Shown in pieces: positions 22,752 to 38,638 of a stretch of DNA of 49,842 bases (positions within the stretch are counted from its first letter, which is position 1; each line of letters begins with the position of its first letter). Below the pieces are notes generated by a model. That model made no database searches, was not told the DNA's origin, and was given only the letters and a program-made list of their open reading frames with translations. Position numbers and translations under genes: made by a program. The stretch is from Caulobacterales bacterium (GTDB lineage Bacteria; Pseudomonadota; Alphaproteobacteria; Caulobacterales; Caulobacteraceae), in contig CANJOB010000002.1 of the NCBI GenBank assembly GCA_947475655.1, positions 1 to 49,842 of the forward strand, in the 5' to 3' direction.

Positions 22752-22860
22752 CTAGAGCCTTCCAGGTTCAGATGAATCTGAACCTGGAAGGCTCTAGATT
22801 CCATAGTTTTGGAGCATGTTCGAGGGGCGAGCCGCCTACAGTTCGCCTAACATGCTCTAG
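22752..22860. repeat. 109-bp MITE-like element with CTAG ends between pcaB and pcaG
   Basis: The element starts CTAGAGC and ends GCTCTAG, giving 7-base terminal inverted repeats (or a CTAG target duplication with shorter ends). Inside are two hairpins. One at 22752-22797 has perfect 22-base arms and a two-base loop. One at 22812-22857 has 9-base outer arms (GAGCATGTT/AACATGCTC) and inner GGCGA/TCGCC pairing. No other copy was seen in this window. It supplies the pcaG stop codon (TAG on the minus strand) and probably forms a stable RNA hairpin within the pca transcript. Confidence 0.75.
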
Positions 22861-23517: not shown

Positions 23518-24240
23518 TCAGTGGTGGTCCTTGTCGTGATCGTCTTCGAAGGGGGTGGCTTCCCGACCGCGCAGGACCACGTCGAAAAGATAGCCCAGGC
23601 CGTAGTTGGGCTCGGTGGTTTCGATGTCGAACCGTGACACCATGCGCTGCCGGTAGGGCATGGGCACGGCATTGGCGATCGGGTCGATCTCGATCAGGGG
23701 ATCATCGGGGAAATACATCTGCGTCACCAGCCGGCTGGCGAAGGATGGCCCCATCAGCGACAGGTGGATGTGGCCCGGGCGCCAGGCGTTGTAGTGGTTG
23801 CCCCACGGGTAACAGCCGGGCCGGATGGTGACATAGCGATAGCGGCCTTGCGCGTCGGTGATGACGCGGCCGGCGCCGGTGAAGTTGGGGTCGTGCGGCG
23901 CGTCCCAGCTGTCGTCGATGTGGATGTAGCGGCCGGCGGCGTTGGCCTGCCAGATTTCCATCACCGTGTTGGGCGCCGGGCGGCCGTCCTCGTCCAGCAC
24001 GCGGCCGGAGACGATGATGCGCTGGCCTTGCGGCATGCCGGCGTGCTGGGTGGTCAGGTCGGCCATGGCGCCGCCCATCAGGCCTTCCCAGCCGTCGGTG
24101 GGGCCGGTGACCTCGGTCAGGGTGGTCGGCGTCCTGATCAGGGGCTTGGACGGCGCCCGCAGGCGGGTGCTCTGATACCCCTCGGAATAGGACGGCGGCG
24201 CGCCGGCGTCCTCGTGTTTGAAGCCGACAAGGCGGGTCAT
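23518..24240 (-). CDS. pcaH: Protocatechuate 3,4-dioxygenase beta subunit
   Basis: The product (240 aa) is the catalytic intradiol dioxygenase subunit. The four Fe(III) ligands are visible: Y105 in AAGRYIHID, Y144 in PGCYPWG, and H157 and H159 in RPGHIHLSL. Substrate-side residues such as R154 are kept. Length matches known PcaH. It starts the pcaH-pcaG-pcaB-pcaL series; a perfect inverted repeat lies 20 bases upstream. The last residues are His/Asp-rich (EDDHDKDHH), an unusual acidic tail. No pcaQ regulator is adjacent. Confidence 0.95.
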   Translation of the reverse strand: MTRLVGFKHEDAGAPPSYSEGYQSTRLRAPSKPLIRTPTTLTEVTGPTDGWEGLMGGAMADLTTQHAGMPQGQRIIVSGRVLDEDGRPAPNTVMEIWQANAAGRYIHIDDSWDAPHDPNFTGAGRVITDAQGRYRYVTIRPGCYPWGNHYNAWRPGHIHLSLMGPSFASRLVTQMYFPDDPLIEIDPIANAVPMPYRQRMVSRFDIETTEPNYGLGYLFDVVLRGREATPFEDDHDKDHH

Positions 24241-24347: not shown

Positions 24348-25172
24348 CTATTTCCCCATGGCCTTGGCGTACCACAGATCCCAGTTCTTATTGACCAGGC
24401 CGTCGTTCTGCGGCGAGATTTTCGCCGCTTCCGCCTCGTTCAGATAGGTCACCGGACCCATCTTCATGGCCTCCGCCTGGATGCGGGCGTTCACCTCAGT
24501 ATAGACGGCGTGCATCACGGCGGTGCGGACGTTGTCGCCGACGGCGACGAAGCCGTGGCCGCGGATCAGGGCCACGGTGTGCTTGCCCAGCTTCGCCGCG
24601 AGGGCTTTGCCCAGCGCCGGGGTGCGGATCAGCATGTCGGTATCGTTTCCAAATCCCTCGCGGATCTCGAACACAGGTGCGCCGGCGCCGAGGAAGCTGC
24701 CCATGTGATAGGTCGGCCGCAATGGCGACTGCTTTGTGATGCTGAAGGCGATCACACCGGGGGAGTGGCTGTGCACCACCGACATCACGTCGGGCCGGGC
24801 GCGGTAGATCTCAGCGTGGATCGAGCGTTCCAGATAGGGCATCGGCCCGCCGGGGATGACCGGCTCGCCGTCCAGGTCGTGCTCCAGCAGGTCGGCGGGG
24901 GTGACCAGGCCCGGGGCCATGCTGCGCGACAGCAGGAAGCGCTCGGGGTTCTTGTCGTGGCGGGCGCTGACGTGGCCGAAGCCGTCGACCACGCCCTGGT
25001 CGGCCAGGATGTGGTTGGCGCCGACCAGGTCGGAGATCAGCTGCGGGCTGGCCGGGCCGGCGCTGGCCCGCCCCTGGGCGAAGGCGGGACCGGCGACAGC
25101 CGCCGTCGCCAGGCCGGCCAGGACCTGCCGGCGCGCCAGGCGCTGTTGGTCGGTGAAGCGGTCATCCATCAT
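24348..25172 (-). CDS. Exported class II aldolase/adducin-family protein (paralog A)
   Basis: The product (274 aa) is a class II aldolase/adducin domain behind a Tat-like signal (LARRQVLAGLATAAVAG, cleavage near AFAQG). Zn ligands are visible as H134 and H136 in VVHSHSP and H206 in IRGHGF, with acid E121 in IHAEIYR. Family members cleave or form C-C bonds; some, such as the 3,4-dihydroxyphthalate decarboxylases, remove CO2 from aromatics. The export signal is unusual for the family. ATG at 25172 has GAGGAA about nine bases upstream. It sits between a dihydroxyphthalate decarboxylase-like gene and pcaH. Three related genes occur in the window. The substrate is unknown. Confidence 0.85.
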   Translation of the reverse strand: MMDDRFTDQQRLARRQVLAGLATAAVAGPAFAQGRASAGPASPQLISDLVGANHILADQGVVDGFGHVSARHDKNPERFLLSRSMAPGLVTPADLLEHDLDGEPVIPGGPMPYLERSIHAEIYRARPDVMSVVHSHSPGVIAFSITKQSPLRPTYHMGSFLGAGAPVFEIREGFGNDTDMLIRTPALGKALAAKLGKHTVALIRGHGFVAVGDNVRTAVMHAVYTEVNARIQAEAMKMGPVTYLNEAEAAKISPQNDGLVNKNWDLWYAKAMGK

Positions 25173-25189
25173 CGCACCGGTTCCTCGTT

Positions 25190-26176
25190 TCAGATCTTTA
25201 CCGTCTCGAGGGTCGAGGGGTGAAAGAGTTCCTCCACCGCCAGACGCCGGGGCGAGAGGCCCTGATCGTGGTGATGCCCCAAAAAGGCCTCCAGCGTCGG
25301 CCGGTTGGCGTCGGCGCCGAAGGACCAGAAGTCGTCGCCCAGAAGGGCGCGGGCGGCTTTGAGCTGCTCTTCGGCGAAGGGCAGGGTGATCTTGGTGGCC
25401 GAGGTGTCGGCGAGCTTGGCCAGGGCCACGCTCTTGCTGCGCGAGAAGGCCTTGAACACCGCCGCCGGCAGCCACGGGTGCTGTTCGACGATGGTCTTGC
25501 GCAGGCCCAGCACATGCATGATCGGGAACACCGAGGTGCGCTGGTAATATTCCTTCGCCGCCGCGGTGGGATCGGGGAACAGCCAGCCGATGTTCGGCTC
25601 GCCGCGTTCGAAGCAGGACGGCGCGCGGGGCGAGACGATGGCGTCGATCTCGCCCGCCGCCAGCATGGCCGACAGGGTCTGGGTCGGGCCGATGTTTTCA
25701 ATTCTGACATCGGCGGGTAGGTTGAGGGCGATCTTCTCCACCCGGCCCGACTGCTCGATGCCGCCGCGCAGCCACTGCACGTCCGACGGCTGGACGCCGT
25801 GCTCGGCCAGGATGGCGCGGGCCCAGACGCAGGCGGTGAGCTGGTATTCCGGCAGGCCGATGCGCTTGCCGATCAGGTCGTTCGGCGTCTTGATGCGGTC
25901 GGTGCGCACCGTGATGGCGGTGTGCCGGAACGCCCGCGAGGGAAAGGCCGGCACGGCGACATAGGGACAATCGCCGCGCGCTGTCTTCACCGTGTAGCTG
26001 GAGAGCGACAGTTCGCAGATGTCGAACTCCGCGTTGCGAAGTGCGCGGAAGAAGATTTCCTCCGGCTCAAGCAGCATGAACACCGGGTCGACGCCGTCGA
26101 TCTGGACGGCGCCGTCCACCAGCGGCCGGTGGCGGTCGTAGTCGCCGACGGCGACGGAGAGCGAGAGTTTCGACAT
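25190..26176 (-). CDS. 4,5-dihydroxyphthalate decarboxylase-like protein (paralog 1)
   Basis: The product (328 aa) resembles Pht5-type 4,5-dihydroxyphthalate decarboxylase, a periplasmic-binding-protein fold without signal peptide. Typical stretches are AVGDYDRHRPLVDGAVQIDG at the N-terminus, EIFFRALRNAEFDICELSLS and CPYVAVPAFPSRAFRHTAI. Pht5 converts 4,5-dihydroxyphthalate to protocatechuate, which fits the pca genes downstream. It is flanked by class II aldolase paralogs with gaps of 17 and 18 bases, so it belongs to the same minus operon. Because the fold is shared with NMT1-like solute-binding proteins, a binding role is the alternative, but no export signal is present. Confidence 0.75.
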   Translation of the reverse strand: MSKLSLSVAVGDYDRHRPLVDGAVQIDGVDPVFMLLEPEEIFFRALRNAEFDICELSLSSYTVKTARGDCPYVAVPAFPSRAFRHTAITVRTDRIKTPNDLIGKRIGLPEYQLTACVWARAILAEHGVQPSDVQWLRGGIEQSGRVEKIALNLPADVRIENIGPTQTLSAMLAAGEIDAIVSPRAPSCFERGEPNIGWLFPDPTAAAKEYYQRTSVFPIMHVLGLRKTIVEQHPWLPAAVFKAFSRSKSVALAKLADTSATKITLPFAEEQLKAARALLGDDFWSFGADANRPTLEAFLGHHHDQGLSPRRLAVEELFHPSTLETVKI

Positions 26177-26194
26177 CTGTCTTAGGCGCAGTTC

Positions 26195-27016
26195 TTACTT
26201 CTTGATGTTGGTGACCCAGAGTTCCCACTGTCGGGCGACGCGCTCGGTGCGCATCACCTCGAACTCGTTCATGCCCAGCGGCGTGCCCAGTTCCAGCGCT
26301 TCGTTCTCGATGTTGGCGCTGATCTGGGTATAGACGGCCTTGAACACCACATCGCGGATGTTCTCGCCGGCGGCGGTGAAGCCGTGGCCGCGCATCAGCA
26401 CGATCGACTCCTTGCCAAGAGTCTTGGCCAGGGCCGCGCCCGAGGTCGGGGTGATCACCAGCATGCCGTTGCGGGGGCCTTCCACGTCCTCGAGGTCGAA
26501 CTTCGGCGCGCCCTTCGTTCCCAGGAAGTAACCCACGTGCACCAGGGCTTTCAGCGGCACGTCGGCGACGGTGAAGGGCAGCACTTCATAGGAGTGGCTG
26601 TGCGCCACGGCCTGCACGTCGGGACGGGCGCGGAAGATTTCGCCGTGGATGTAGCGCTCGTTGTAAAGCTCGCGGTTGGTCCCACCGACCGGCTGGCTGT
26701 TCTCGTCGAACTCCAGGATGTCCTCGCGGCTGACGATCGCCGGCGCGCGCGAGCGGGCCATGTAGAAGTGCTTGGGGTTTTTCAGCGAGCGGACGCTGAT
26801 GTGGCCGAAGCCGTCGAGCACCCCATGCTGGGCCAGGATGCGGTTGGCCGTGACCAAGTCGGCGATACGCTGCTCGTCGCTGTCTGGCGGCACGGGCGCG
26901 GGGCCGACCAGGACCGGGGCGGCGGGGGCTTGCGCCATCGCGGGGGCGACGGCGGCGGTCAGCAGGGCCGCCGCGCAGGCGGCGAGACGGCTGTATTTGG
27001 TGAAGGCGTTTGCCAT
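26195..27016 (-). CDS. Exported class II aldolase/adducin-family protein (paralog B)
   Basis: The product (273 aa) has a Sec signal (hydrophobic run about 11-26, cleavage near AMAQA) and a class II aldolase domain with E126 (IHGEIFR), H139 and H141 (AHSHSY) and H211 (MRGHGF). The segments LDGFGHISVRSLKNPKHFYMARSR match the other paralogs and define the subfamily (core LDGFGHIS). ATG at 27016 is preferred, with GGGAAA about eight bases upstream; a longer frame begins at 27082. It lies between paralog C and the Pht5-like gene in one operon. Predicted location is periplasm; the reaction is unknown, with decarboxylation or retro-aldol cleavage of an aromatic intermediate possible. Confidence 0.85.
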   Translation of the reverse strand: MANAFTKYSRLAACAAALLTAAVAPAMAQAPAAPVLVGPAPVPPDSDEQRIADLVTANRILAQHGVLDGFGHISVRSLKNPKHFYMARSRAPAIVSREDILEFDENSQPVGGTNRELYNERYIHGEIFRARPDVQAVAHSHSYEVLPFTVADVPLKALVHVGYFLGTKGAPKFDLEDVEGPRNGMLVITPTSGAALAKTLGKESIVLMRGHGFTAAGENIRDVVFKAVYTQISANIENEALELGTPLGMNEFEVMRTERVARQWELWVTNIKK

Positions 27017-27089
27017 TGTGTTGTTTCCCAAATTTGTGGCGGCGGCCGCGGCCCGGATCGCCGGGCGGCGCCGCGGGTTCATTGGTTCG

Positions 27090-27938
27090 CTACTTGCCGG
27101 CCTGCTCGAGTTCGGTGACCCACAGCTCCCACTGGCGTTCGGTACGGCCCTGACGCAGCACTTCGTACTGGTTCAGGTACTTGACCGTGCCGCGGCCCTT
27201 GTCGAGCCGCAGGGCCTTGGTCTCAACCTGGGCGTTGATGCGGGTGTAGATCGCCTTGAACACCGAGTCGCGGATCGAGGTGCCGGCCACCGCCATGCCG
27301 TGGCCGCGCAGCAGCGCCACCCAACGGTTGCCCAGCACACGCGCCAGGGCCGAGCCGGTGGTGGTGTTCTGCACGAGCATGCGGTTGTCGGCGCCGGAGA
27401 CGGTGGCCAAGTCGAACACCGGCGCGCCCTCGGTGCCGAGGAAGTTGGCGACGTGGATCACCGCCTTCAGCGGCGCCTTGGTCACGGTGTAGGGCAGGAC
27501 GACGTAGGTGTGGCTGTGGATCACCGACTGCACGTCCGGGCGGACGCGGTAGATCTCGCCGTGGATGAAGCGCTCGCTGTACAGCTCGCTGCCCTTCTGG
27601 TCGATCGGAACGCCGTTCTCGTCGAATTCGAGGATGTCCTCTTTGGTGACCAGGCCCGGGGCGCGCGAGCGGGCCATGAAGTAGTGCTTGGGGTTGCTCA
27701 CCGAGCGGGCGCTGATGTGACCGAAGCCGTCCAGCACGCCCTGGGCGTCGAGGATGTGGTTGGCGACCACCAGGTCGGCGATGCGGGTCGCATCGGTGTT
27801 CGGCGGCAGAATCCGCTCGCGGTCCGGCGGCAGGGGGGCGGGCGCCTGGACCTGCGCCGAGGCGGGCAGGACCCCCAGCAGGATCAAGGCCGCGGCGGAA
27901 ATCGCCAGGCGGCCGCTCAGTTGGAGCTTGTTTCGCAT
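27090..27938 (-). CDS. Exported class II aldolase/adducin-family protein (paralog C)
   Basis: The product (282 aa) has a Sec signal (LAISAAALILLGVLPASAQ, about 11-29) and a Pro-rich linker. The class II aldolase domain shows E128 (IHGEIYR), H141 and H143 (IHSHTY) and H213 (RGHGMA). The start is ATG 27938 with GGGGA about eight bases upstream; ATG 27953 would add five residues. It is closest to paralog B, with matching LDGFGHIS and NPKHYFMARSRAPGLV blocks, suggesting tandem duplication. It follows ligJ by 130 bases. It lacks any lyase partner domain, so it should act alone or as a homo-oligomer in the periplasm. Confidence 0.85.
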   Translation of the reverse strand: MRNKLQLSGRLAISAAALILLGVLPASAQVQAPAPLPPDRERILPPNTDATRIADLVVANHILDAQGVLDGFGHISARSVSNPKHYFMARSRAPGLVTKEDILEFDENGVPIDQKGSELYSERFIHGEIYRVRPDVQSVIHSHTYVVLPYTVTKAPLKAVIHVANFLGTEGAPVFDLATVSGADNRMLVQNTTTGSALARVLGNRWVALLRGHGMAVAGTSIRDSVFKAIYTRINAQVETKALRLDKGRGTVKYLNQYEVLRQGRTERQWELWVTELEQAGK

Positions 27939-28067
27939 TATGTCCGTCCCCATTCCCAGTTCTTGTGCTGGCAGGCCCGGGCGCGGGCCCAGGTTGAAAA
28001 ATCCAGGCGCTGTACGAGCCTGACGCTCGCTACAACCCCGGAGTGGCTAATACAAGGCGATCCCATT

Positions 28068-29087
28068 TTAGAGGCCCCGGGCGCGAAGTTGCGCGTCGAG
28101 CCGCGGATAGACGCGGCGGGCATTGCCCTCGAAAATCTTGTGCTTGTCCGCGTCGCTGATGGCGAGCGCGTCGATGTAGCGCTTGGTGTCGTCGAAGTAC
28201 TGGCCGGTGGTGGGGTCGATGCCGCGCACGGCGCCGACCATCTCCGAGCCGAACAGGATGTTGTCGATGTCGATCACCTCAGTGAGCAGGTTGATACCCG
28301 GCTGGTGATAGACGCAGGTGTCGAAGAACACGTTTTTCATCACGTGCCCGCGCAGATCCGGCTTCTTCAGCATGTCGGCCAGGCCCCGGTAGCGGCCCCA
28401 GTGATAGGGCACCGCGCCGCCGCCGTGCGGGATGATGAAGCGCAGGGTCGGGAAGTCGGCGAAGAGATCGCCCGACAGGAATTGCATGAAGGCCGTGGTG
28501 TCGGCGTTGATGTAGTGCGCGCCGGTGGCGTGGAAGTTGTGGTTGCACGATCCCGAGACGTGGACCATCGCCGGCACGTCCAGCTCGACCATCTTCTCGT
28601 AGAATGGATACCAGGCCTTGTCGGTGAGCGGCGCCGAGGTCCAGTGTCCGCCGGACGGGTCCGGATTGAGGTTGCAGCCGACGAAGCCGTATTCCAGCAC
28701 GCAGCGTTCCAGCTCGGCGATCGAATTGGCGATGGAGACGCCCGGCGACTGCGGGAGTTGGGCGACGCCGATGAAGATTTCGGGATAGAGCTCCACCACC
28801 CGCTTGATCAGGTCGTTGCAGCGGCGGGTCCATTCCTGGCTGACGCCTTCGTCGCCGATGTGGTGGGCCATGGTTGAGGCGCGCGGCGAGAAGATCGTCA
28901 TGTCCGCGCCGCGCTCCTTCAGCAGGCGCAGCTGATTGGACTCGATGGTTTCGCGGATTTCGTCGTCGGAAATCGTCGGATAGGGCGGGGCGGCCACGCC
29001 GGCCTTGAAAGCGGCGACCTGGGCGTCGCGCCAATCGTCGTGCGCATTGGGCGCTGTGGTGTAGTGGCCGTGGCAATCGATAATCAT
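28068..29087 (-). CDS. ligJ: 4-oxalomesaconate hydratase (LigJ)
   Basis: The product (339 aa) is an amidohydrolase-fold enzyme very like Sphingobium LigJ. It opens MIIDCHGHYTTAP with metal ligands H6 and H8, and carries FSPRASTMAHHIGD, NLNPDPSGGHWTSAPLTDKA, GAHYINADTTAFMQF, PHGGGAVPYHWGRYRGLA and FGSEMVGAVRGIDP. LigJ hydrates 4-oxalomesaconate to 4-carboxy-4-hydroxy-2-oxoadipate in the protocatechuate 4,5-cleavage and gallate routes. LigK, the next enzyme, is at 31 kb. No LigAB, LigC or LigI is seen here. It heads the minus-strand catabolic array, divergent from a DUF1932 dehydrogenase. Start ATG 29087 from family alignment. Confidence 0.9.
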   Translation of the reverse strand: MIIDCHGHYTTAPNAHDDWRDAQVAAFKAGVAAPPYPTISDDEIRETIESNQLRLLKERGADMTIFSPRASTMAHHIGDEGVSQEWTRRCNDLIKRVVELYPEIFIGVAQLPQSPGVSIANSIAELERCVLEYGFVGCNLNPDPSGGHWTSAPLTDKAWYPFYEKMVELDVPAMVHVSGSCNHNFHATGAHYINADTTAFMQFLSGDLFADFPTLRFIIPHGGGAVPYHWGRYRGLADMLKKPDLRGHVMKNVFFDTCVYHQPGINLLTEVIDIDNILFGSEMVGAVRGIDPTTGQYFDDTKRYIDALAISDADKHKIFEGNARRVYPRLDAQLRARGL

Positions 29088-29153
29088 GGGTGCTGGTCTT
29101 CTATACTGTCTGTCACGCACGCGCGCGGGCGTCGGCCAAGGATGCGTTTATCG

Positions 29154-29165
29154 CATCAATTGATG
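29154..29165. promoter_or_regulatory. Palindrome in the ligJ/DUF1932 divergent promoter region
   Basis: CATCAATTGATG is a perfect 12-base palindrome within the 152-base spacer between divergent ligJ and the DUF1932 gene, flanked by TATCG and ATTGCG. Its centred position between two divergent catabolic units suits a regulator site, for example the LysR-type regulator encoded at 31.9 kb. Confidence 0.4.
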
Positions 29166-29239
29166 ATTGCGTGCGGTTTTGGCCGCTGTCGCCATAAGAT
29201 TGGCTTCTCGACCTCGCGGAGAGTCTGTAGTCAGTCCTC

Positions 29240-30127
29240 ATGAGTTCATCAGTACCCAAAATTGCTTTCATCGGCTTCGGCGAGGCGGCCCAGGCCTTCG
29301 TTTCCGGTTGGGGCGACAAGCCGCCCGGTCCGATCTCGGCCTTCGACATCAAGACCAACACCGATGCCTCGCGCGTGGCCAAGCTGGCCGACTACGCCGC
29401 TTGCCGGGTGCGCGGCGACAACACCCTGGCGGACGCGCTGCAGGACGCCGACATCGTGTTCTCGGTCGTCACCGCCGGCAACGCTCAGGCCGCGGCCAGC
29501 CAGGCCGCCGGCCTGTTCCCGCGCGGCGCGCTGTTCTTCGACATGAACAGTGTTGTTCCCGACACAAAACGGGCCAACGCCAAGGCCATCGAGGCCGCGG
29601 GCGGACGCTACGTCGACGTCGGCGTCATGGCGCCGGTCTATCCGGCGCAGTTGAGAGTACCGATGCTGCTGGCCGGTCCGCACGCGGCGCAGGCCACGGA
29701 GACCATGAGGTCGATTGGCTTCAACACGCGCTGTGTCGGCGACGACGTCGGCAAGGCGGCGGCGGTGAAGATCATCCGCAGCATCATGGTCAAGGGCATG
29801 GAAGCGGTGACCGCCGAATGCGTGCTGGCGGCCTTCGCGGCCGGCGTCGAGGACGAGGTGATGGCCTCGCTCACCGCCACCTGGTCCAACGCTGCCATGC
29901 CAGAGCGGGCCGACTACAACCTCGACCGGATGATGGTGCATGGCCGCCGCCGGGCGGAGGAGATGCGCGCCGCCACCGAGATGGCCAAGAGCCTGGGCCT
30001 GGGCGGCGGGATGTCGGCCTCCACTGCGCATTGGCAGGATCGCATCGGCGAACTGGAGCTGCCCGCGGACGGAGACCTGCGGGACAAGGTCGCCGCGATC
30101 CTGAGCGCGTTCCAGCGGGGCGGCTGA
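29240..30127 (+). CDS. NAD(P)-dependent oxidoreductase, 6PGDH-like with DUF1932
   Basis: The product (295 aa) is a beta-hydroxyacid dehydrogenase-like enzyme. It has the NAD(P)-binding IAFIGFGEAAQAF (8-20), a conserved catalytic Lys in GKAAAVKIIRS, and a helical C-terminal DUF1932 domain ending the protein. These enzymes oxidise or reduce hydroxy acids. Placement divergent from ligJ and near ligK suggests it acts on an oxo- or hydroxy-dicarboxylate of the gallate/protocatechuate meta route. It is not a LigC-type (Gfo/Idh) dehydrogenase, so its exact substrate is unknown. Start ATG 29240 has little Shine-Dalgarno signal. It faces the second Pht5-like gene with a five-base gap. Confidence 0.82.
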   Translation: MSSSVPKIAFIGFGEAAQAFVSGWGDKPPGPISAFDIKTNTDASRVAKLADYAACRVRGDNTLADALQDADIVFSVVTAGNAQAAASQAAGLFPRGALFFDMNSVVPDTKRANAKAIEAAGGRYVDVGVMAPVYPAQLRVPMLLAGPHAAQATETMRSIGFNTRCVGDDVGKAAAVKIIRSIMVKGMEAVTAECVLAAFAAGVEDEVMASLTATWSNAAMPERADYNLDRMMVHGRRRAEEMRAATEMAKSLGLGGGMSASTAHWQDRIGELELPADGDLRDKVAAILSAFQRGG

Positions 30128-30132
30128 ACGCT

Positions 30133-31008
30133 TCACGAGGCCAGGCCGCGCGGGCCGGGCCAGCCGGCCCACACCTCGTCCAGCGACAGCGGCCGCGGCA
30201 GCAGGCCCTGGCTGTCCGAATAGCGCACCGCCAGGTCGATCGCCGCGCCGAGGTCTCCGACCACGTCCGTCCCCAGACTCGCGCCCTTGGTCCGGAACCA
30301 GTCGAGGACGGCAGGTCCGAAGGCCGGATCGGCCTCGATCCGGTCCTGGCGGGCCACCATCATGTGGTTGACCGGGGTGAAGCCGTGCACATCGCGAAAC
30401 GTCTTGGCCGAACCTTCCGGGTCGGCGAACACCTGGCGGATTCCGGGATCGTCCGGCACGTCGGCGCCGACGATGACCGCGTCGACCGACCCGTCTTTCA
30501 ACATGGCCATCAGATCGGCGTCCGGCTCGGCCCGGCGGGCCCACGGCGGGTCCTGGTAGCCGGCGACATGGGCGTCCTCGAAGGTGACCCAGTCGATGTC
30601 CTTGGTGGCGACCCCGTGGAACTCCTCGAGCACGCCGCGCAGCCAGACGCCGGTGGTCTGGCTGTAGGCGCGCACGCCGATGACGCGGCCGGCCAGATCT
30701 TCCGGCCCCTTTATGCTGGTGTCGTCCGAGCGGCAGAGCAGAGCGCCCTGCTGGGCGCGGGCGGCGGTGACGATCGGCAGCAGCACCAGGGGGACGCCCT
30801 GGGCCTTGGCCATGAGGAAGGTGACGATGGCCAGTTCGGCGACATCGAACTTGAGCTCGCGCACCGTGGGCTTGAACGCGCGGTTGATCGGCTTGATGTC
30901 GGCGAACTGCGGCGACAGGCCGGTCGGCGGCGAGCCGGCGATGAGCCCGCGCGTGTGCGGATATTCCCCCAATGCAATCGAGAAGGGGGCTATGGAAAAC
31001 GGGGCCAC
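30133..31008 (-). CDS. 4,5-dihydroxyphthalate decarboxylase-like protein (paralog 2)
   Basis: The product (291 aa) shares the opening LGEYPHTRGLIAGS and the layout of the Pht5/periplasmic-binding fold. FDVAELAIVTFLMAKAQG replaces the CELSLSSY block of paralog 1, and the central GVRAYSQTTGVWLRGVLEEF matches the family. There is no signal peptide. The GTG start at 31008 comes two bases after the ligK stop, so the two are coupled and ligK is transcribed first. It may decarboxylate another dihydroxy-aromatic acid, or be a catalytically distinct relative. Divergence from paralog 1 is large enough that the same substrate is unlikely. Confidence 0.68.
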   Translation of the reverse strand: MAPFSIAPFSIALGEYPHTRGLIAGSPPTGLSPQFADIKPINRAFKPTVRELKFDVAELAIVTFLMAKAQGVPLVLLPIVTAARAQQGALLCRSDDTSIKGPEDLAGRVIGVRAYSQTTGVWLRGVLEEFHGVATKDIDWVTFEDAHVAGYQDPPWARRAEPDADLMAMLKDGSVDAVIVGADVPDDPGIRQVFADPEGSAKTFRDVHGFTPVNHMMVARQDRIEADPAFGPAVLDWFRTKGASLGTDVVGDLGAAIDLAVRYSDSQGLLPRPLSLDEVWAGWPGPRGLAS

Positions 31009-31010
31009 GT

Positions 31011-31691
31011 TCAGCCTTCGGCCTGAACGTAGGTGAGGCCCTTGCGCGCCAGCCGCTCGCGCATGCCGTAAATGTCCAGCCCCAGTTCCCCGGCGCTGAG
31101 CCGGGCGCGGGTGGCCGCTTCCTTGCGTTCGCGGGCGTCGGTCAGGGCCAACACCTCGGACGCCTTGAGCCGCTCGACCACAACCACCCCGTCGTCGTCG
31201 GCGACGATCAGGTCGCCCGGATGAACCAGCTGGCCGGCGCAGACGATCGGCGTGTTCACGTCGCCCAGCGTCTCCTTCACCGTGCCCTGGGCGTTGACCG
31301 CCCTGGACCAGACCGGAAAGCCCATTTCCTGCAGGGTGGCGATGTCGCGCACCCCGGCGTCGATGATCAGGCCGCGCACGCCGCGCGACATCAGGGAGGC
31401 GGCCAGCAGATCGCCGAAATAGCCGGCGTCGCTGGGAGATGTGGGGGCCACGACCAGGATGTCGCCGGGGCGGCACTGCTCGACGGCGACATGGATCATC
31501 CAGTTGTCGCAGGGCGGGATCGACACGGTCACCGCGGCTCCGGCGATCTTGGCCCCCGGGTAGATCGGCCGCATGTGGGCGGCCAGCAGGCCGACCCGGC
31601 CCTGGGCCTCATGCACCGTGGCCACGCCGTAGGGCTGATAGGCGTCGGCGGTCTCGACCGGAACGCGCGGCGGATCGACGAACACCTTCAT
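31011..31691 (-). CDS. ligK: 4-carboxy-4-hydroxy-2-oxoadipate aldolase (LigK/ProA)
   Basis: The product (226 aa) is an RraA-fold class II pyruvate aldolase with the HMG/CHA aldolase features [43 protein letters not shown] and the metal/substrate motif AGVRDIATL. LigK splits 4-carboxy-4-hydroxy-2-oxoadipate into pyruvate and oxaloacetate and also decarboxylates oxaloacetate. Length matches LigK (about 228 aa). It acts directly after LigJ. ATG at 31691 was chosen from alignment. It is divergent from the LysR regulator, which probably controls it. Confidence 0.92.
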
Positions 31692-31762
31692 GCCGAGGCC
31701 CCGTGGCCAAGGACCGTCTCGCCTGGGAATCTCACGCGCAGCCCCCTTTCGCCGTTTTGACG

Positions 31763-31788
31763 GCATTTTATACCTTGAGCGCATTTTA
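31763..31788. promoter_or_regulatory. Direct repeats in the ligK-lysR divergent region
   Basis: GCATTTTA occurs at 31763 and again at 31781, 18 bases apart, in an AT-richer pocket of an otherwise GC-rich spacer between ligK and the LysR gene. A GGTTAT motif, a possible PcaQ-type half site, follows near 31842. These are candidate binding sites of the adjacent LysR regulator. Confidence 0.3.
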
Positions 31789-31883
31789 GATATCCAGGCC
31801 GCCGACGCCTATCGTTTGTCTTGCGGCTTGTATCATCCCTGGTTATGGCTCCCCCGCGGCCGGGGGGCCATGCGAGGCGGTGC

Positions 31884-32858
31884 GTGAACCTTCATCTTGA
31901 TCAGCGGCTGCGCCTGCAACTGCTCCGGGTCGTCAACGCGCTGGACACGCACGGCAGCCTGCTCAAGGCCTCCGCCGCCCTTGGCGTCAGCCAGCCGGCC
32001 CTCACCAAAAGCCTGAAAGATATAGAGAGCATCACCGGGCTGCGCCTGTTCGAGCGCCATGCGCGCGGGGTGCGCGCCACCTCCGCGGGCCAGGTGATGG
32101 TCCGCGCCAGCCACCGCATCCTGGCCGAACTGCACCGGACCGAGGAGGAGCTGGCCTCGATCGACAAGCCGGACAGCGACCTGGCGGCCCTGGGTGCGCT
32201 GCCGGTGGCTGCGGCGGGGATCATGCCCGCGGCCCTGGCCCTGCTGCGCCAGCGGCAGCCCAACACCAAGGTGCGGCTCGAACAGGGCAGCACCGCCCAG
32301 CTGCTGCCCCTGCTGGCGGCCGGCCAGATCGATCTGATCGTCGGCCGCATCTACGACCCGATGGCCCCGGATGACTTCGAGCGCGAGCCCCTTTGGCTCG
32401 AGCCCATGGCCCTGATCGGACGGTACGACCATCCGATCTTCGCCCTGCCGGCCATCACCCGCGCCGACATCAACCGCTACGACCTGGCCCTGCCCAACGT
32501 CAGCCAGCGCATCGGCATGGAGATCGAGCACATCGTCGTCCAGCTGGCGCAGGACGTGCGGCCGGTGTTCCGGTCCAGCTCCCACGGCTTCATCCGCGAG
32601 ACCCTGCTTTCGTCCGACACCCTGTCGATCATGCCGTCCCTTCTGGTGCTGGGCGACCTGCACCGCGGCTACCTGCGCGGCGCGCCGATCCCGGTCCCGA
32701 CCCAGCCGCGGCGGGCCGGGATTACCTACCGCAAGGGGCGGCCGCTGCCGGCGGCGGCCCTGGCCTTCGCCGACGCCCTGCGCACCTATATCCGCGAAAT
32801 CGAGGACCAGGGGCTGGTGACTATAACCGAGCGTGATACGCAGCCGGGCGTGGCCTGA
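31884..32858 (+). CDS. LysR-family transcriptional regulator (PcaQ/GbpR-like)
   Basis: The product (324 aa from GTG 31884) has an N-terminal winged helix with LLKASAALGVSQPALTKSLK (about 27-46), and a C-terminal periplasmic-binding-fold effector domain. The extended opening LRLQLLRVVNALDTHGS resembles the PcaQ/GbpR branch, which responds to aromatic intermediates such as 3-carboxymuconate. GAGG lies about seven bases before the chosen GTG; an upstream in-frame ATG at 31821 is less likely. Divergent to ligK, the usual LysR arrangement, so it probably activates ligK and its partner, and perhaps the ligJ-pca array. Confidence 0.88.
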   Translation: MNLHLDQRLRLQLLRVVNALDTHGSLLKASAALGVSQPALTKSLKDIESITGLRLFERHARGVRATSAGQVMVRASHRILAELHRTEEELASIDKPDSDLAALGALPVAAAGIMPAALALLRQRQPNTKVRLEQGSTAQLLPLLAAGQIDLIVGRIYDPMAPDDFEREPLWLEPMALIGRYDHPIFALPAITRADINRYDLALPNVSQRIGMEIEHIVVQLAQDVRPVFRSSSHGFIRETLLSSDTLSIMPSLLVLGDLHRGYLRGAPIPVPTQPRRAGITYRKGRPLPAAALAFADALRTYIREIEDQGLVTITERDTQPGVA

Positions 32859-33049
32859 CCGGAAAGCTCGGGGCCTGCGATTTCTGGCTTATAACGCCGC
32901 CTGATAGGGCCGGACGGCAAAACCGATAGGACAAACCCGGCGCCGCAAGCCATAGTCCAGGCTGGACCACCAGTGTAGAAAGCGGCGGCGTTCAGGCCGG
33001 ACGCAGGGCCGAAAGATCCTGCAGGCCGCGTTGAGGGGGAAAACGATCC

Positions 33050-34276
33050 ATGGCCAGTGCAACCGGCGACGCGTCTTCGGCGCCGCGAACCTCCATCATC
33101 ACCGTGGCGCTCTGCTACATGGTCGCCGTTTTCGAAGGCATCGACCTGCAGGCCGCCGGCGTGGCCGCGCCGCGCCTGGGTCCGGCCTTCGGCATGACCC
33201 CGGAGCAGCTGGGCTGGTTCTTCTCCTCCAGCACTTTCGGCCTGATGCTCGGCGCCGCGATCGGCGGCCGGTTATCGGATCGTTTCGGGCGCAAGGCGGT
33301 GCTGATCTGCGCGGTGGGGGTCTTTGGCGCCCTGTCGCTGCTGACCGCCCTGGCGCCCAACGTCGAGGGGCTGCTGATCGCCCGCTTCCTGACCGGGGTC
33401 GGCCTCGGCGGCGCCCTGCCCAACCTGGTGGCCCTGGTGGCCGAGAACACCGCCCCGTCGCAGAAGAACCGCTCGGTCGGCCTGCTGTACGCCGGCCTGC
33501 CCACCGGCGGCGCCGTGGTCAGCCTGATCAGCCTGGCCGGCGGGGCCGAGGACTGGCGCATGGTGTTCATTGTCGGCGGCCTCGCGCCGCTGATCGCCAT
33601 TCCGCTGCTGATGTGGATCCTGCCGGATTCGCGTAGCCAGGCCGCCGTTCGCCAGGAGGTCGAGCGCAAGCAGGGCTTCGTCCAGGCGCTGTTCCGCGAG
33701 AACCGCGCCCTGCGCAGCGTGCTGCTGTGGATATCGTTCTTCCTGTCGCTGCTGACCATGTACCTGCTGCTCAACTGGCTGCCGACCCTGCTGATAGGCC
33801 GGGGCCTGAGCCGGCCGGAGGCCTCGTTGGTGCAGGTCTCGTTCAACGTCCTGGGGGCCATGGCCAGCTTCGCCACCGGCTACGCCATGGACAAGTGGTC
33901 GCTGCCACGCGTGATCGTGGTCTGTTTCGTCGCCTCGGCGCTGGCGCTCGCCCTGCTGGCCGGAGCCCCGGCGGAACTGGCGATCTCCATGGCTGTGGGC
34001 GGGCTTGTCGGCATCGCCATGTCGGGCACCCAGGCCCTGCTCTACGCCATCGCCCCGGCCAATTACCCCACCGAGGTGCGCGGCACCGGCGTCGGCTCCG
34101 CCGTGGCCATCGGCCGCCTGGGCTCGGCGGTCGGTCCGCTGCTGGCCGGGGTGCTGCTCGGCTCGGGCGGCTCGCCCGCCGAGGTGCTGGGCGTGCTGAT
34201 CCCGATCATCCTCGTGGCGGGCGCCGCCGCCTTGGTGCTGAGCCTGCTCAAGAAGGGCGCGACCGCAAGCTCCTGA
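33050..34276 (+). CDS. MFS aromatic acid:H+ symporter (AAHS/PcaK family), first copy
   Basis: The product (408 aa) has 12 predicted membrane segments. Family motifs are FEGIDLQAAGVAAP in helix 1, where AAHS transporters keep a DGxD-type acidic pair and this copy has a variant (EGID), and GGRLSDRFGRK in loop 2-3. GVGLGGALPNLVALVAE is also typical. PcaK-type proteins import 4-hydroxybenzoate, protocatechuate or related acids with protons. It is preceded by 191 non-coding bases after the LysR gene. Next to a cfa-like gene and a second MFS, it probably serves uptake for the catabolic genes on both sides. Confidence 0.88.
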   Translation: MASATGDASSAPRTSIITVALCYMVAVFEGIDLQAAGVAAPRLGPAFGMTPEQLGWFFSSSTFGLMLGAAIGGRLSDRFGRKAVLICAVGVFGALSLLTALAPNVEGLLIARFLTGVGLGGALPNLVALVAENTAPSQKNRSVGLLYAGLPTGGAVVSLISLAGGAEDWRMVFIVGGLAPLIAIPLLMWILPDSRSQAAVRQEVERKQGFVQALFRENRALRSVLLWISFFLSLLTMYLLLNWLPTLLIGRGLSRPEASLVQVSFNVLGAMASFATGYAMDKWSLPRVIVVCFVASALALALLAGAPAELAISMAVGGLVGIAMSGTQALLYAIAPANYPTEVRGTGVGSAVAIGRLGSAVGPLLAGVLLGSGGSPAEVLGVLIPIILVAGAAALVLSLLKKGATASS

Positions 34277-34319
34277 TGGCGCGCCGCCCCTACCGCCGCC
34301 GCATGTATCGGACCGCGCC

Positions 34320-35510
34320 GTGATCGAGGCCCTGCTGGCCAGGATGGTCAAGGTCGGCGACCTGACCGTGCGCCTGCCGGGCGGGCGGGAGAAGCGCGTC
34401 GGCGACGGGACCGGAACCCCGGTGGTCATGCGCCTGACGGGGCGCGGCCTGCGCCGGCTGGTCGCCAACCCGAGCCTTGGGCTCGGCGAGGCCTATATGG
34501 ACCAGGATCTGGTGTTCGAGCGGGGGACCCTGTGGGACCTGCTGGAGATCGTCGGCCGGAGCGGCGGCCGCGCGCCCAAGGGCCGCGCCTCCTGGCACAA
34601 GCGCCTGCGGAAGGCGGTCAAGCGCAAGCTGCAGCAGATCAACGGCCGCGCCGCCGCCCGCCGCAACGTCAGCCATCACTACGACCTGTCGAACGAGCTG
34701 TACCGGCGCTTCCTCGACGCCGACATGCAGTATTCCTGCGCCTATTTTTCCAAGCCCGGCATGACGCTCGATCAGGCGCAGGCGGCGAAGAAGGCGCACA
34801 TCGCCGCCAAGTTGAGGATCACGCCCGGCATGACCGTGCTGGACATCGGCTCCGGCTGGGGCGGCATGGCCATGACCCTGGCCAAGGACCACGGGGCGCA
34901 CGTCACCGGCGTGACCCTGTCTGAGGAACAGCTGACCCTGGCCCGCGAGCGCGCCAAGGCCGCGGGGCTTTCGGAGGCGGTGAAGTTCGAACTGGCCGAC
35001 TACCGAGACCTGACGCAACCCTTCGACCGCATCGTTTCGGTCGGCATGCTGGAGCACGTCGGGGCCCCAAATTTCCGCACCTATTTCGAGACCGTGAAGC
35101 GACTGCTCGACGCCGACGGGGTGGCCCTGATCCACGCCATCGGCCGCATGTCCGGCCCGGGCGCCACCAACGCCTTCACCCAGAAGTACATCTTCCCAGG
35201 CGGCTACATCCCCGGCCTGTCGGAGATCGTGGCCGCCATCGAGGCGGCGGGGCTGTGGATCACCGACATCGAGATTCTGCGCCTGCATTACGCCGACACC
35301 CTGCGCCACTGGCGCATGCGCTTCCTGGCCGACCCGGAGATTCCGGTGATCAGCGCCCCCCGCTTCCAGCGCATGTGGGAGTTCTACCTGGCCTCGGCGG
35401 AGCTGGGCTTCCGCTACGGCGGCCATATGGTGTTCCAGATCCAGCTGAGCAAGCGGGTCGGCGCCCTGCCCATGACCCGCGACTACATGCTGGAGGCGAA
35501 CGCCTCCTGA
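34320..35510 (+). CDS. cfa: Cyclopropane-fatty-acyl-phospholipid synthase family methyltransferase
   Basis: The product (396 aa) contains an N-terminal lipid-binding domain, then RRNVSHHYDLSNELYRRFLD, the S-adenosylmethionine motif VLDIGSGWGGMAMTLA (near 178-193) and MLEHVGAPNFRTYFE, all typical of CFA synthase. The family adds a methylene group from SAM across cis double bonds of membrane lipids. GTG start at 34320 follows the MFS gene by 43 bases, and an 83-base gap precedes the second transporter. An aromatic-transporter neighbour is unusual; it might protect membranes against toxic aromatic acids, or simply be an insertion. Confidence 0.88.
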   Translation: MIEALLARMVKVGDLTVRLPGGREKRVGDGTGTPVVMRLTGRGLRRLVANPSLGLGEAYMDQDLVFERGTLWDLLEIVGRSGGRAPKGRASWHKRLRKAVKRKLQQINGRAAARRNVSHHYDLSNELYRRFLDADMQYSCAYFSKPGMTLDQAQAAKKAHIAAKLRITPGMTVLDIGSGWGGMAMTLAKDHGAHVTGVTLSEEQLTLARERAKAAGLSEAVKFELADYRDLTQPFDRIVSVGMLEHVGAPNFRTYFETVKRLLDADGVALIHAIGRMSGPGATNAFTQKYIFPGGYIPGLSEIVAAIEAAGLWITDIEILRLHYADTLRHWRMRFLADPEIPVISAPRFQRMWEFYLASAELGFRYGGHMVFQIQLSKRVGALPMTRDYMLEANAS

Positions 35511-35593
35511 GCCTGGACGGCCCGCCCGGGCCATGCATAGGTGCGCGCCACGCCGACGGCGCCCATAAGAAATAGACGGGACGAAACACCCTC

Positions 35594-36928
35594 ATGACCA
35601 GCCGCACCGTCGTCCGCGAGTTCATGGACAAGGCGCCAATCTCGCGCATGCACATTCTGTTCGTGGCCATCTGCGGCTCTCTGATCGCGGTGGACGGCTT
35701 CGACACCGCCGTAGTGGGCTTCGTCGCCCCGAGCATCCGCCAGGAATGGGCTATGCCGCCGTCGGCCCTGGCGCCGCTGTTCTCCGCCGGCCTGTTCGGC
35801 CTGCTGCTGGGAGCCCTGATCATGGGCCCGGTGGCCGACCGATTCGGGCGCAAGGTGGTGATGGTCGCCTGCACCTTCATGTTCAGCGCGGCCAGTTTCG
35901 CCGCCGCCACCTCCCCCGATTTCCACACCCTGGTGCTGATGCGCTTCCTGACCGGCCTGGGGATCGGCGGGGCCTTCCCCAACGCCATCACCCTGGCCTC
36001 GGAATTCCTGCCCACTCGCCGGCGCTCTGTGTTCGTGATGATCGCGGCCAGCGGCTTCACCATCGGCTCGGCCGTCGCCGGCTTCGTCACCGCAGGACTG
36101 GTCGCCGCCGCCGGCTGGCGCGGGGTGATGGTGGTCAGCGGCGTCGCGCCCCTGATCGTCGGCCTCGCTGCCATGGCCTTTCTGCCGGAGTCGCCGCAGT
36201 ACCTGAGTATCCGCGGCAAGGACGCCCGTCTGCGCAAGGTCCTGGCCAAGATCGCGCCCCTGCCTGCCGAGCCGACCGAGTTCGTCGCCGACGAGAAGCC
36301 GGCCAAGGCGCCGATGATCGACCTGTTCAAGGATGGCCGCGCGCCGGTGACGCTGCTGGTCTGGCTGGCGTTCTTCTGCAGCCAGCTGGTGATCTATCTG
36401 CTGACCAACTGGCTGCCGACGCTGCTGTCGGACGCCGGCGCCACGGCCAGGAACGCGGCCCTGGTGACCTCGGGCTTCATGTTCGGCGGCACGATCGGCG
36501 GCATCTGGCTGGGCTTCCGCATGGACGGCCGCAACGGTTTCGCCGTCGTCTCGGTCGCCTACCTGATCGGGGCGGGGGCCATCGTCTGCCTTGGCCTAGG
36601 CGGCGGCTCGCTGTGGATCATGGCCCTGGCGGTGTTCGTCAGCGGCACCTTCGTCAGCGGCTCGCAGACCGGCATCAACATCCTGACCGCCCAGTTCTAT
36701 CCCGGCGCGATCCGCGCCACCGGGGTGGCCTGGGCCACGTCGCTGGGGCGGCTGGGCGCGATCAGCGGTTCGCTGCTGGGCGGGGTGCTGGTCGGGCTGC
36801 AGATGGGCTATCCGCCCCTGTTCGGCATCGTCGGCGCGATCTGCGTCATCAGCGCCGTTTCGCTCGGCTTCCTGGCCCGGCGGGTCGGCCGCGCCAACGC
36901 GGCGGCTCAGGCCGTCCCGGCGGAGTAG
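35594..36928 (+). CDS. MFS aromatic acid:H+ symporter (AAHS/PcaK family), second copy
   Basis: The product (444 aa) is a 12-helix MFS transporter with the canonical AAHS helix-1 motif DGFDTAVVGFVAP and GPVADRFGRK in loop 2-3, plus FLTGLGIGGAFPNAITL. The larger central loop (about 200-240) is typical. Compared with the first copy, the DGFD motif is complete, so this is the stronger PcaK match. It is followed four bases later by exported class II aldolase paralog D, implying a transporter-enzyme pair that is co-transcribed. Predicted substrates are hydroxylated benzoates or phthalates; the exact one is unknown. Confidence 0.9.
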   Translation: MTSRTVVREFMDKAPISRMHILFVAICGSLIAVDGFDTAVVGFVAPSIRQEWAMPPSALAPLFSAGLFGLLLGALIMGPVADRFGRKVVMVACTFMFSAASFAAATSPDFHTLVLMRFLTGLGIGGAFPNAITLASEFLPTRRRSVFVMIAASGFTIGSAVAGFVTAGLVAAAGWRGVMVVSGVAPLIVGLAAMAFLPESPQYLSIRGKDARLRKVLAKIAPLPAEPTEFVADEKPAKAPMIDLFKDGRAPVTLLVWLAFFCSQLVIYLLTNWLPTLLSDAGATARNAALVTSGFMFGGTIGGIWLGFRMDGRNGFAVVSVAYLIGAGAIVCLGLGGGSLWIMALAVFVSGTFVSGSQTGINILTAQFYPGAIRATGVAWATSLGRLGAISGSLLGGVLVGLQMGYPPLFGIVGAICVISAVSLGFLARRVGRANAAAQAVPAE

Positions 36929-36932
36929 CATC

Positions 36933-37730
36933 GTGCTTCGCGTTCGAAACCTGATCGCCTCGGTCCTGGCGGCCGCCCTGCTGGCGCCCGCTTCGACAGC
37001 CTTGGCGCAGGGCGCGCGCGCCCAGACCGCCGACCAGGCTGAGGCCGCGCTGCTGAACGACCTGCTGCTAGCCAACCACATCCTGGCCGACCAGGAGGTG
37101 CTCGACGCCTTTGGCCACATCAGCGTCCGCTCGATCAAGAACCCCAAGCATTTCTACCTGGCGCGCGCCCGGGCTCCCGGCCTAGTCGAGCCCGCCGACA
37201 TCATCGAGTTCGACGAGAACGCAGAGGCGATCGACGCGCGGGGCCGCGCGCCGTACCAGGAGCGTTTCATCCACAGCGAGATTTACCGCGCCCGGCCGGA
37301 CGTCGGATCGGTGATCCACAGCCACTCGCCGGCGACCCTGCCCTACGGCCTGACCAAGCAGCCGCTGCTGCCGGTGACGCACCTGTCCGCCTTCCTCGGC
37401 GCCACCCCGACGCCGGTGTTCGACATCCGCGACACCGAGGGCGAGAAAAACTACATGCTGGTGCGCACCGCCCCCACCGGCGCCGCCTTGGCGCGCACCC
37501 TGGGAAAACGCGCGGTGGTGCTGATGCGCGGCCACGGCATGACCGTGGTGGCGCCGGACGTGCGCGCCGCCGTGTTCCGCGCTGTTTACACGCAGATGAA
37601 CGCCCAGGTGCAGAGCGAGGCCCTGAGGTTCGGCAAGCCCAACGCGCTCAACGCCTACGAGGCCGACCGCCTCGATGCGCCCGAACGCCCGTGGGAAATG
37701 TGGGTCGACCGCGTCACGAAGAAGCCTTGA
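36933..37730 (+). CDS. Exported class II aldolase/adducin-family protein (paralog D)
   Basis: The product (265 aa) has a Sec signal (LIASVLAAALLAPASTALAQ, about 7-26) and a class II aldolase domain with E116 (IHSEIYR), H129 and H131 (IHSHSP) and H201 (MRGHGM). Blocks LDAFGHISVRS and NPKHFYLARARAPGLV tie it to paralogs B and C. GTG start is four bases after the MFS stop. It ends 41 bases before the extradiol dioxygenase gene. Position between an aromatic importer and a ring-cleavage enzyme suggests it acts on an aromatic acid or ring-fission product before or during uptake. The reaction is unknown. Confidence 0.86.
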   Translation: MLRVRNLIASVLAAALLAPASTALAQGARAQTADQAEAALLNDLLLANHILADQEVLDAFGHISVRSIKNPKHFYLARARAPGLVEPADIIEFDENAEAIDARGRAPYQERFIHSEIYRARPDVGSVIHSHSPATLPYGLTKQPLLPVTHLSAFLGATPTPVFDIRDTEGEKNYMLVRTAPTGAALARTLGKRAVVLMRGHGMTVVAPDVRAAVFRAVYTQMNAQVQSEALRFGKPNALNAYEADRLDAPERPWEMWVDRVTKKP

Positions 37731-37771: not shown

Positions 37772-38638
37772 ATGCTCCGCCATCCTGTCCCGACCAATCC
37801 CGCCCGCCCCGAGTCCTGTCTGACGGCGGACCTGCTTTATCTGAACTTCTCCAGCCCCGATCCGCGGCGGCTGGCGGAGTTCTACACGCGTGTGATGGGC
37901 TACGGCTTCACCGAGCAGGACAGTATGCAGGTGGGGCGCGCGCCCGGCCGCAACATTCTGTTCTCGCCCGGCAAGGCTAAGACCCTGGCGGAGGCCGGCT
38001 ACGCGGTGGCCGACGCCGGCCAGCTGGAGCGCCTGCGTGACCGCATCAGGGCCGCCGGGGTGGCGCATGAGAACGGCCCGACCCTGATGTTCGCCGACGC
38101 CGTGCGCGTGCAGGACCCGGACAGCAATCGCTTCGCCTTCGGCCTGCCGAAGGATCCGCCGGTGGTGGCGGAAGAAACCCTGACCGCCCGCATGCAGCAC
38201 TTGGTGATGGCTAGCCGCAACCCTGAGCCGATCGTGCGCTTCTTCACCGACGTGCTGGGCTTCACCCTGTCGGACGACGTGCTGGACGAGGAGGGTGGGG
38301 TGCGCACCTCGTTCGTGCGCAGCAGCCACGAGCACCACAGCTTCGCCGTGTTCCTGGCCCCGGAGGACCGGCTCGACCACCACTGCTACGAGACCGACGA
38401 CTGGAACATGATCCGCGACTGGAGCGACCACATGGCGGATCAGCACGTCCGCCTGGTTTGGGGGCCCGGGCGGCACGGGCCGGGCGACAACCTTTTCATC
38501 TTCGTGCACGACCCGGACGGCAACTGGGTCGAGGTTTCGGCCGAGCTTGAGACCGTCAATCACGAGCGTCCGGCCGGCAAGTGGCCGCACTCGGAACGCA
38601 CTCTCAACAGCTGGGGTCAGGGCTTCATGCGCAGCTGA
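37772..38638 (+). CDS. VOC-fold extradiol ring-cleavage dioxygenase
   Basis: The product (288 aa) has two vicinal-oxygen-chelate modules: residues about 18-125 (non-metal) and 138-262 (catalytic). Metal ligands expected for type I extradiol enzymes are visible as H143 (MQHLVMAS), H203 or H204 (LDHHCYET) and E254 (WVEVSAE), with spacing similar to BphC/catechol 2,3-dioxygenase. It should open a catechol-type ring. It follows paralog D by 41 bases. Since no LigAB is present, it may provide the extradiol step for LigJ/LigK substrates, or cleave an unrelated catechol. Substrate cannot be set from sequence. Start ATG 37772; a longer frame overlaps paralog D. Confidence 0.85.
   Translation: MLRHPVPTNPARPESCLTADLLYLNFSSPDPRRLAEFYTRVMGYGFTEQDSMQVGRAPGRNILFSPGKAKTLAEAGYAVADAGQLERLRDRIRAAGVAHENGPTLMFADAVRVQDPDSNRFAFGLPKDPPVVAEETLTARMQHLVMASRNPEPIVRFFTDVLGFTLSDDVLDEEGGVRTSFVRSSHEHHSFAVFLAPEDRLDHHCYETDDWNMIRDWSDHMADQHVRLVWGPGRHGPGDNLFIFVHDPDGNWVEVSAELETVNHERPAGKWPHSERTLNSWGQGFMRS

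Follow-up and report, generated by a model that had tools for sequence, protein, structure and literature searches.

Predicted exported paralogues of the class II aldolase family as candidate periplasmic decarboxylases in an aromatic-acid catabolic locus of a Caulobacterales bacterium

A stretch of 49,842 nucleotides from a Caulobacterales bacterium (hereafter the window: contig 2, CANJOB010000002.1, of assembly GCA_947475655.1, a draft genome that totals 2.88 Mb over 239 contigs and is 83% complete) encodes four paralogous proteins of the class II aldolase/adducin family, A to D, within a locus for the breakdown of aromatic acids. Export of the four is well supported by their predicted N-terminal signals, and we propose, at a probability of about one half, that they are periplasmic metal-dependent decarboxylases of hydroxylated aromatic di- or polyacids that act ahead of uptake. 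Schemes of bacterial aromatic-acid catabolism usually begin with uptake and place every reaction in the cytoplasm; what is new here is the compartment and the expansion, not the fold. Among the open-licence PMC papers that our searches listed, no title or opening of an abstract describes an exported class II aldolase decarboxylase, and the phrase "periplasmic decarboxylase" found no open-licence PMC match. The four genes are as follows.

24348–25172, minus strand: paralogue A, predicted exported, PF00596 and HMPDdc-like, Tat-type leader LARRQVLAGLATAAVAGPAFA (PF00596, 114 bits; 2z7b, 2e-50; GAGG before the ATG)
26195–27013, minus strand: paralogue B, predicted exported, Sec-type leader (PF00596; leader rule; coding score; match to 2z7b)
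27090–27938, minus strand: paralogue C, predicted exported, Sec-type leader (PF00596; leader rule; coding score)
36933–37730, plus strand: paralogue D, predicted exported, Sec-type leader, GTG start (PF00596; leader rule; structure model)

All four proteins belong to PF00596 (78.8 to 114 bits, cut-off 22.2), and their active site is intact. The metal triad H129, H131 and H201 and the acid E110 (D numbering) are invariant in 69/69 aligned proteins, and His62, Arg66, Glu110, His114, His129, His131 and His201 are identical in all 99 rows of the tree described below, bearing out the first-pass annotation of this DNA, which had noted three metal-binding His and an acid Glu. By sequence, A, B and D have 2z7b (Mlr6791) as their nearest solved relative, and D has it by fold as well; this 3-hydroxy-2-methylpyridine-4,5-dicarboxylate decarboxylase of a vitamin B6 context outranks NovR, pyruvic oxime dioxygenase and fuculose-phosphate aldolase by a wide margin. 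As this relative is a decarboxylase, decarboxylation is the likeliest chemistry, and the conserved residues together with the closeness to 2z7b favor an O2-independent reaction. The paralogues are thus HMPDdc-like in closest sequence (A, B and D), in fold (D) and in shared active-site residues, but not in being leaderless and cytosolic: the chain numbering of 2z7b (−2 to 232 over the match) suggests an N-terminus at the start of the fold, whereas A to D carry leaders. The third His motif also differs, ARHG in 2z7b versus RGHG in A to D.

Other members of the family were compared in the same way. The top NCBIfam match of all four paralogues is PhtC, the 3,4-dihydroxyphthalate decarboxylase (NF053537), against which the first-pass annotation had suggested a check; the scores (A 84, B 75.6, C 63.4 and D 74.1 bits) are far under the cut-off of 200, and this identity was rejected although it supplies the best family name. 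A class II aldolase from a Pseudarthrobacter plasmid (L118), at most a candidate PhtC, is encoded near a ring-hydroxylating dioxygenase, has the same conserved residues and is distant in the tree. Annotated relatives carry only the name "class II aldolase/adducin family protein". A decarboxylating role in the breakdown of aromatics has been ascribed to another class II aldolase, DhbB of Pseudomonas reinekei MT1 (PMC6362003); its substrate is a ring-cleavage product, unlike that proposed for A to D. Since the fold includes pyruvic oxime dioxygenase and NovR, the paralogues might instead be exported non-haem iron oxygenases that oxidize phenolic acids in the periplasm, and pyruvic oxime dioxygenase (8il8, 8iqa, 8ix6) does have the fold and the His triad in common with A to D. 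The match is weak (E from 2e-7 to 3e-13 for A, B and D), and 2z7b is much closer. The published description of pyruvic oxime dioxygenase (PMC11841055) treats its N-terminal extension as part of the enzyme, without terming it a signal, and gives Gln53 as completely conserved and catalytically important and the FucA-type Glu as absent. In our alignment, the Gln53 position is His62 in 99/99 rows and Glu110 is retained in 99/99, while this Glu is missing from the alignments with pyruvic oxime dioxygenase and NovR (the Gln/His place of NovR lies outside the printed match). Identity with pyruvic oxime dioxygenase was rejected on these residues, and an oxygenase role is improbable.

Signal peptides were called by a rule of our own rather than by SignalP: a twin arginine, a hydrophobic stretch and A-x-A for a twin-arginine (Tat) leader, and a positive n-region, a hydrophobic core and A-x-A for a Sec leader. 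The rule was positive for all four paralogues, with the twin arginine in A only and the Sec features in B, C and D, exactly the division that the first-pass annotation had claimed when it proposed signal-peptide prediction as a check. None of the 40 cytosolic genes tried, which were enzymes of the window and their homologues, gave a positive, even with the upstream frame searched; the rule is also positive on membrane proteins and is by itself no proof of cleavage. Many close relatives lack a leader, and proteins such as L029, L037, L038 and L057 begin within a few residues of the fold, which makes the leader an extra segment of about 30 residues. The structure predicted for D has a mean pLDDT (predicted local distance difference test) of 93.2; its first three ten-residue blocks score 50, 56 and 71 and the remainder at least 84, with the first helix starting at residue 33.

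Such leaders could be artefacts of choosing an upstream start for enzymes that are in fact cytosolic, and this possibility draws on the lack of a leader in most relatives of the class (26 of 27 readable loci) and on the start codons near or within the leaders of B (an ATG late in the leader, then a GTG beyond it) and of C and D (a single TTG within each leader). For A, the longest open reading frame begins at 25475 and the likeliest gene start, preceded by GAGG, is 25172; the only in-frame start between leader and fold is codon 2, itself an ATG, so that A offers no other start ahead of the fold. For B and C, the likeliest starts, judged by eye, are 27013 and 27938, not 27082 and 27953, which are also open. 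The leaders score 10.6 to 18.4 in their own frame and at best 5.2 (A) or below zero (B to D) in any other; the codon table behind these scores was trained on 15 genes of the window, including A to D. Moreover, twin-arginine leaders recur in A-type relatives of Pseudomonadota, Rokubacteria and Acidobacteria. Together with the negative result on cytosolic genes and the cysteine contrast below, these findings led us to reject miscalled starts, which appear unlikely to the point of being a marginal concern, and with them, as far as sequence can tell, part of the objection that the first-pass annotation had raised against its own proposal.

Cysteine content provides an independent trait that agrees with export. 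Cys is absent from the mature parts of A to D, and Cys-free domains make up 28/34 of exported but only 9/65 of non-exported relatives (25/34 versus 12/65 under the bare labels of the rule). At position 149 of D, Cys occurs in 40/65 non-exported rows, and the three residues most frequent there in exported rows do not include it. Five of the six Cys-bearing exported domains have one Cys pair at the same columns (D positions 97 and 115), a possible disulphide; the five carriers (from the L096, L122, L123 and L128 loci) are relatives outside the main clades.

Export was mapped on a maximum-likelihood tree with 99 rows, one of them 2z7b, using labels from 103 places (38 rule-positive); the same labels underlie the Cys contrast. 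L026, L030 (two places) and L032, present again as L122 and L125, were dropped, as was L080, which shares its N-terminal region with L079; by eye, L027, L075 and L093 were relabeled as not exported and L042, L054 and L077 as exported. B, C and D fall, with the copies C9 and C63 from elsewhere in the genome, within a 12-row clade of which 10 are exported (support 95/95), B pairing with C (98/94) and D with C63 (100/97). A lies in a five-row Caulobacteraceae group (three exported, two not; 100/97), and the further copy C97 forms a long branch without a clear place. Support is weak (81/95) for a group of 51 rows that is non-exported throughout and contains 2z7b on a long branch. The export label changes 11 times on the tree, at least seven of the changes being forced by well-supported branches, and no direction was inferred; on this tree the predicted exported form has no single origin. 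The concern of the first-pass annotation that A to D might prove to be ordinary cytosolic aldolases also failed, as far as sequence can test it: the tree does not place them among such proteins.

The genome holds three exported copies outside the window (C9, C63 and C97), giving leaders in 7/7 close relatives; the remaining PF00596 protein of the eight, C28, is more distantly related and has no leader by eye. A search of 60 other genomes, 36 of the same genus, found nothing matching B at E 1e-10; A was matched at 1e-20 in 6/249 genomes of the family, this one included, with leaders at 14 of 18 places in them. D was matched at 1e-30 in 22/385 genomes of the class, again including this one; N-termini in the other genomes, read from tblastn matches with the same rule at 28 of 34 places (L144 has a broken frame and no N-terminus), carried a leader at 1/27 readable loci. 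The exported form is therefore rare across the class, with a concentration in this family. A collection-wide scan found at least 592 stretches and at least 383 relatives; among the best 80 of these relatives (79 loci), a sample and no census, exported forms also occur in Acetobacteraceae, Reyranella, Betaproteobacteria (three Burkholderiales, by eye), Rokubacteria and Acidobacteria, mostly in metagenome draft genomes. The predicted exported form is a minority, present in several lineages and frequently outside catabolic clusters. A fold assumed by default to be cytosolic thus appears to have an exported branch in draft genomes of several phyla.

The neighbors of A to D in the window, from our own gene calls, are given below.

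20402–21595, minus strand: PcaDC fusion (NF051488, 424.9; cut-off 390)
21597–22739, minus strand: PcaB-like lyase (Lyase_1; position)
22857–23516, minus strand: PcaG-like, protocatechuate 3,4-dioxygenase alpha (Dioxygenase_C; position after PcaH)
23518–24240, minus strand: PcaH, protocatechuate 3,4-dioxygenase beta (TIGR02422, 308; cut-off 296.4)
25190–26176, minus strand: Pht5, 4,5-dihydroxyphthalate decarboxylase, no leader by the rule (9jp7, E 2.5e-145)
28068–29087, minus strand: LigJ, 4-oxalomesaconate hydratase (6dxq, 2.6e-184)
29240–30127, plus strand: DUF1932/NAD-binding oxidoreductase (family matches)
30133–31008, minus strand: second, distant Pht5-like protein (9jp7, 3e-20)
31011–31691, minus strand: LigK, 4-carboxy-4-hydroxy-2-oxoadipate aldolase (TIGR02798, 329.6; cut-off 304.5)
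31884–32858, plus strand: LysR regulator (family match)
33050–34276, plus strand: MhpT-type importer of the major facilitator superfamily (MFS) (NF008586, 471.7 bits; cut-off 410)
35594–36928, plus strand: PcaK-like aromatic acid/H+ symporter, MFS (TIGR00895, 347 bits, cut-off 418.55; NF053517, 338, cut-off 770; below both)
37772–38638, plus strand: extradiol-type (VOC) ring-cleavage dioxygenase (family matches)

The minus-strand run reads LigJ, C, B, Pht5, A, PcaH, PcaG, PcaB-like and PcaDC, so that A, B and C share their direction with 4,5-dihydroxyphthalate decarboxylase, LigJ and protocatechuate 3,4-dioxygenase; 18 bases separate B from Pht5 and 17 separate Pht5 from A. The plus-strand run comprises LysR, the MhpT-type carrier, a methyltransferase, the PcaK-like carrier, D and the extradiol-type dioxygenase, with D flanked by the last importer (4 bases before) and the dioxygenase (41 bases after). 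LigK and the second Pht5-like gene (both minus) and the DUF1932 gene (plus) lie between the two runs. Every neighbor named by the first-pass annotation (two Pht5-like proteins, LigJ, two aromatic MFS carriers and a ring-cleavage dioxygenase) was identified. Pht5 belongs to an unrelated family and, encoded between A and B, is likely to serve the same pathway. The methyltransferase (34320–35510, plus strand), of the cyclopropane-fatty-acid-synthase type, sits between the two aromatic MFS carriers.

Four of the five loci of this genome lie near importers or ring-cleavage genes, and in three of the five an exported copy and an MFS carrier share a strand. C63 stands in a run of a CMD protein, C63, a gentisate-type cupin (194 bits, cut-off 442), an HpaX-like MFS carrier (475, cut-off 615) and an FAH hydrolase, the cupin and the carrier both scoring below their cut-offs. 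C9 follows 26 bases behind an MFS gene whose product weakly resembles lactate and oxalate/formate carriers (56 bits, cut-off 320). The exception, C97, is set among other exported proteins; there (L131, G000 contig 97, 5839–8645) a leader-like protein of no Pfam family directly precedes it and an NHL-repeat protein follows.

In the mechanism that we propose, an N-terminal signal would direct each paralogue to the periplasm, A folded through Tat and B to D unfolded through Sec, and the leader would be cut after A-x-A. A divalent metal on the three His, with the acid Glu, would then strip aromatic di- or polyacids of a carboxylate that neighbors a ring hydroxyl, and the resulting hydroxybenzoate-type acid would be imported by the adjacent MFS carriers to enter cytoplasmic ring cleavage of the protocatechuate 3,4-, extradiol or (at C63) gentisate type. 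Of the periplasmic step before uptake suggested by the first-pass annotation, export and, by way of 2z7b, decarboxylation as the likeliest chemistry were upheld; that they form a single pre-uptake step is something we only infer. What the sequence shows is the fold family, the complete active site, the leaders, the lack of Cys and the gene context; from these we infer the cleavage of the leader and the cellular location, as well as the decarboxylation, its substrate and metal, and its place ahead of import. If true, an exported decarboxylase would change the carrier that is needed, one importer could serve many substrates, and part of the product could reach neighbors.

Several points weigh against this proposal. 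The cytosolic Pht5 of the same run could process 4,5-dihydroxyphthalate without A to D, and a Pht5-like gene, present in the fetched stretch at 14/61 non-exported loci, is found at 0/27 exported loci outside the window. By eye and from a neighbor tally, unrelated genes seem to surround several exported relatives beyond Caulobacteraceae (Acetobacteraceae, Reyranella and others). PF00596 folds also include aldolase and dioxygenase activities, and the annotated fuculose-phosphate aldolase 4xxf is likewise without the Glu in the alignment, which makes the Glu supporting evidence that cannot alone split lyases from oxygenases. Finally, a paired tree test, with too few pairs, cannot confirm the Cys contrast (seven independent pairs, about three agreeing and none opposing, p = 0.25).

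The tally counted Pfam families within three genes, in proteins of 90–1100 amino acids. Exported copies (140 neighbors, 25 loci including the window) were accompanied by five MFS, five TonB barrels, five GST and three TctC proteins, and non-exported copies (141 neighbors, 28 random loci of 47) by 10 TctC, seven FAD_binding_3 and five MFS, TonB being outside the 25 families listed for them. Tripartite-transporter receptors are thus commoner near non-exported copies (10/141 versus 3/140), as if these took the diacid in whole, a contrast that is small and partly set by the lineages sampled. Conserved neighbors were dropped as a key to the substrate; exported loci outside Caulobacteraceae share little, and the tally, although suggestive, is too heterogeneous to name one.

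A related island in another genome (G098) unites three exported copies with a LigXa-like Rieske oxygenase, a PdxA-type dehydrogenase, an FAD hydroxylase, a DASS symporter, a TonB receptor and metallo-beta-lactamase-fold proteins of exported appearance. Two of its genes (L122, contig 68, 3807–4760 and 12885–13856) encode leader-like proteins of the last kind beside the exported relatives and the TonB receptor, possibly a second periplasmic enzyme of the same module. The LigXa-like oxygenase would also fit a set of other exported C–C lyases, performing retro-aldol or side-chain cleavage of lignin-derived aromatics, or hydration, as would the fold shared with fuculose-phosphate aldolase, whose Glu73 seems by motif to correspond to Glu110. 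However, A to D reach no curated aldolase cut-off (for the FucA and AraD types of sugar-phosphate aldolase/epimerase, the top score is 62.6 bits, for A with NF005123, against cut-offs of about 250–400), and the nearest solved enzyme is a decarboxylase; such lyases are an unlikely account, though one that merits consideration. TonB receptors, which lie near the exported copies of L122 and immediately precede those of L123 and L128, could instead point to periplasmic scavenging or detoxification unlinked to growth on aromatics, for example of catecholates entering through these receptors, and the exported relatives outside catabolic clusters agree with it. But the adjacency is weak evidence, as TonB receptors are very common in the genome (53 plug domains), and every locus here except that of C97 accompanies importers or ring-cleavage genes, so that we consider this role quite improbable.

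Returning to decarboxylation ahead of uptake, a tentative extension, which we hold as rather less than an even prospect, is that the exported enzymes form a periplasmic funnel that would convert diverse hydroxylated aromatic polyacids into a few monoacids, each with its importer and ring-cleavage route. The Tat/Sec split would then give the paralogues different metals, loaded in the cytoplasm (A, Tat) or in the periplasm (B to D, Sec).

Further features lie downstream in the window. A series on the plus strand (39651–42334) encodes an exported TPR protein, an ApbE with DUF2271 fusion and a PepSY-TM protein, a row that we take to resemble an extracytosolic flavin-transfer redox module. Two tandem TonB-dependent receptors with similar N-termini (plus strand, 46885–49128 and 49326 to the end, where the contig end cuts the second) adjoin an intradiol dioxygenase of the catechol/hydroxyquinol type (45810), and an iron-alcohol-dehydrogenase family protein nearby (44657) would be a maleylacetate reductase by context only.
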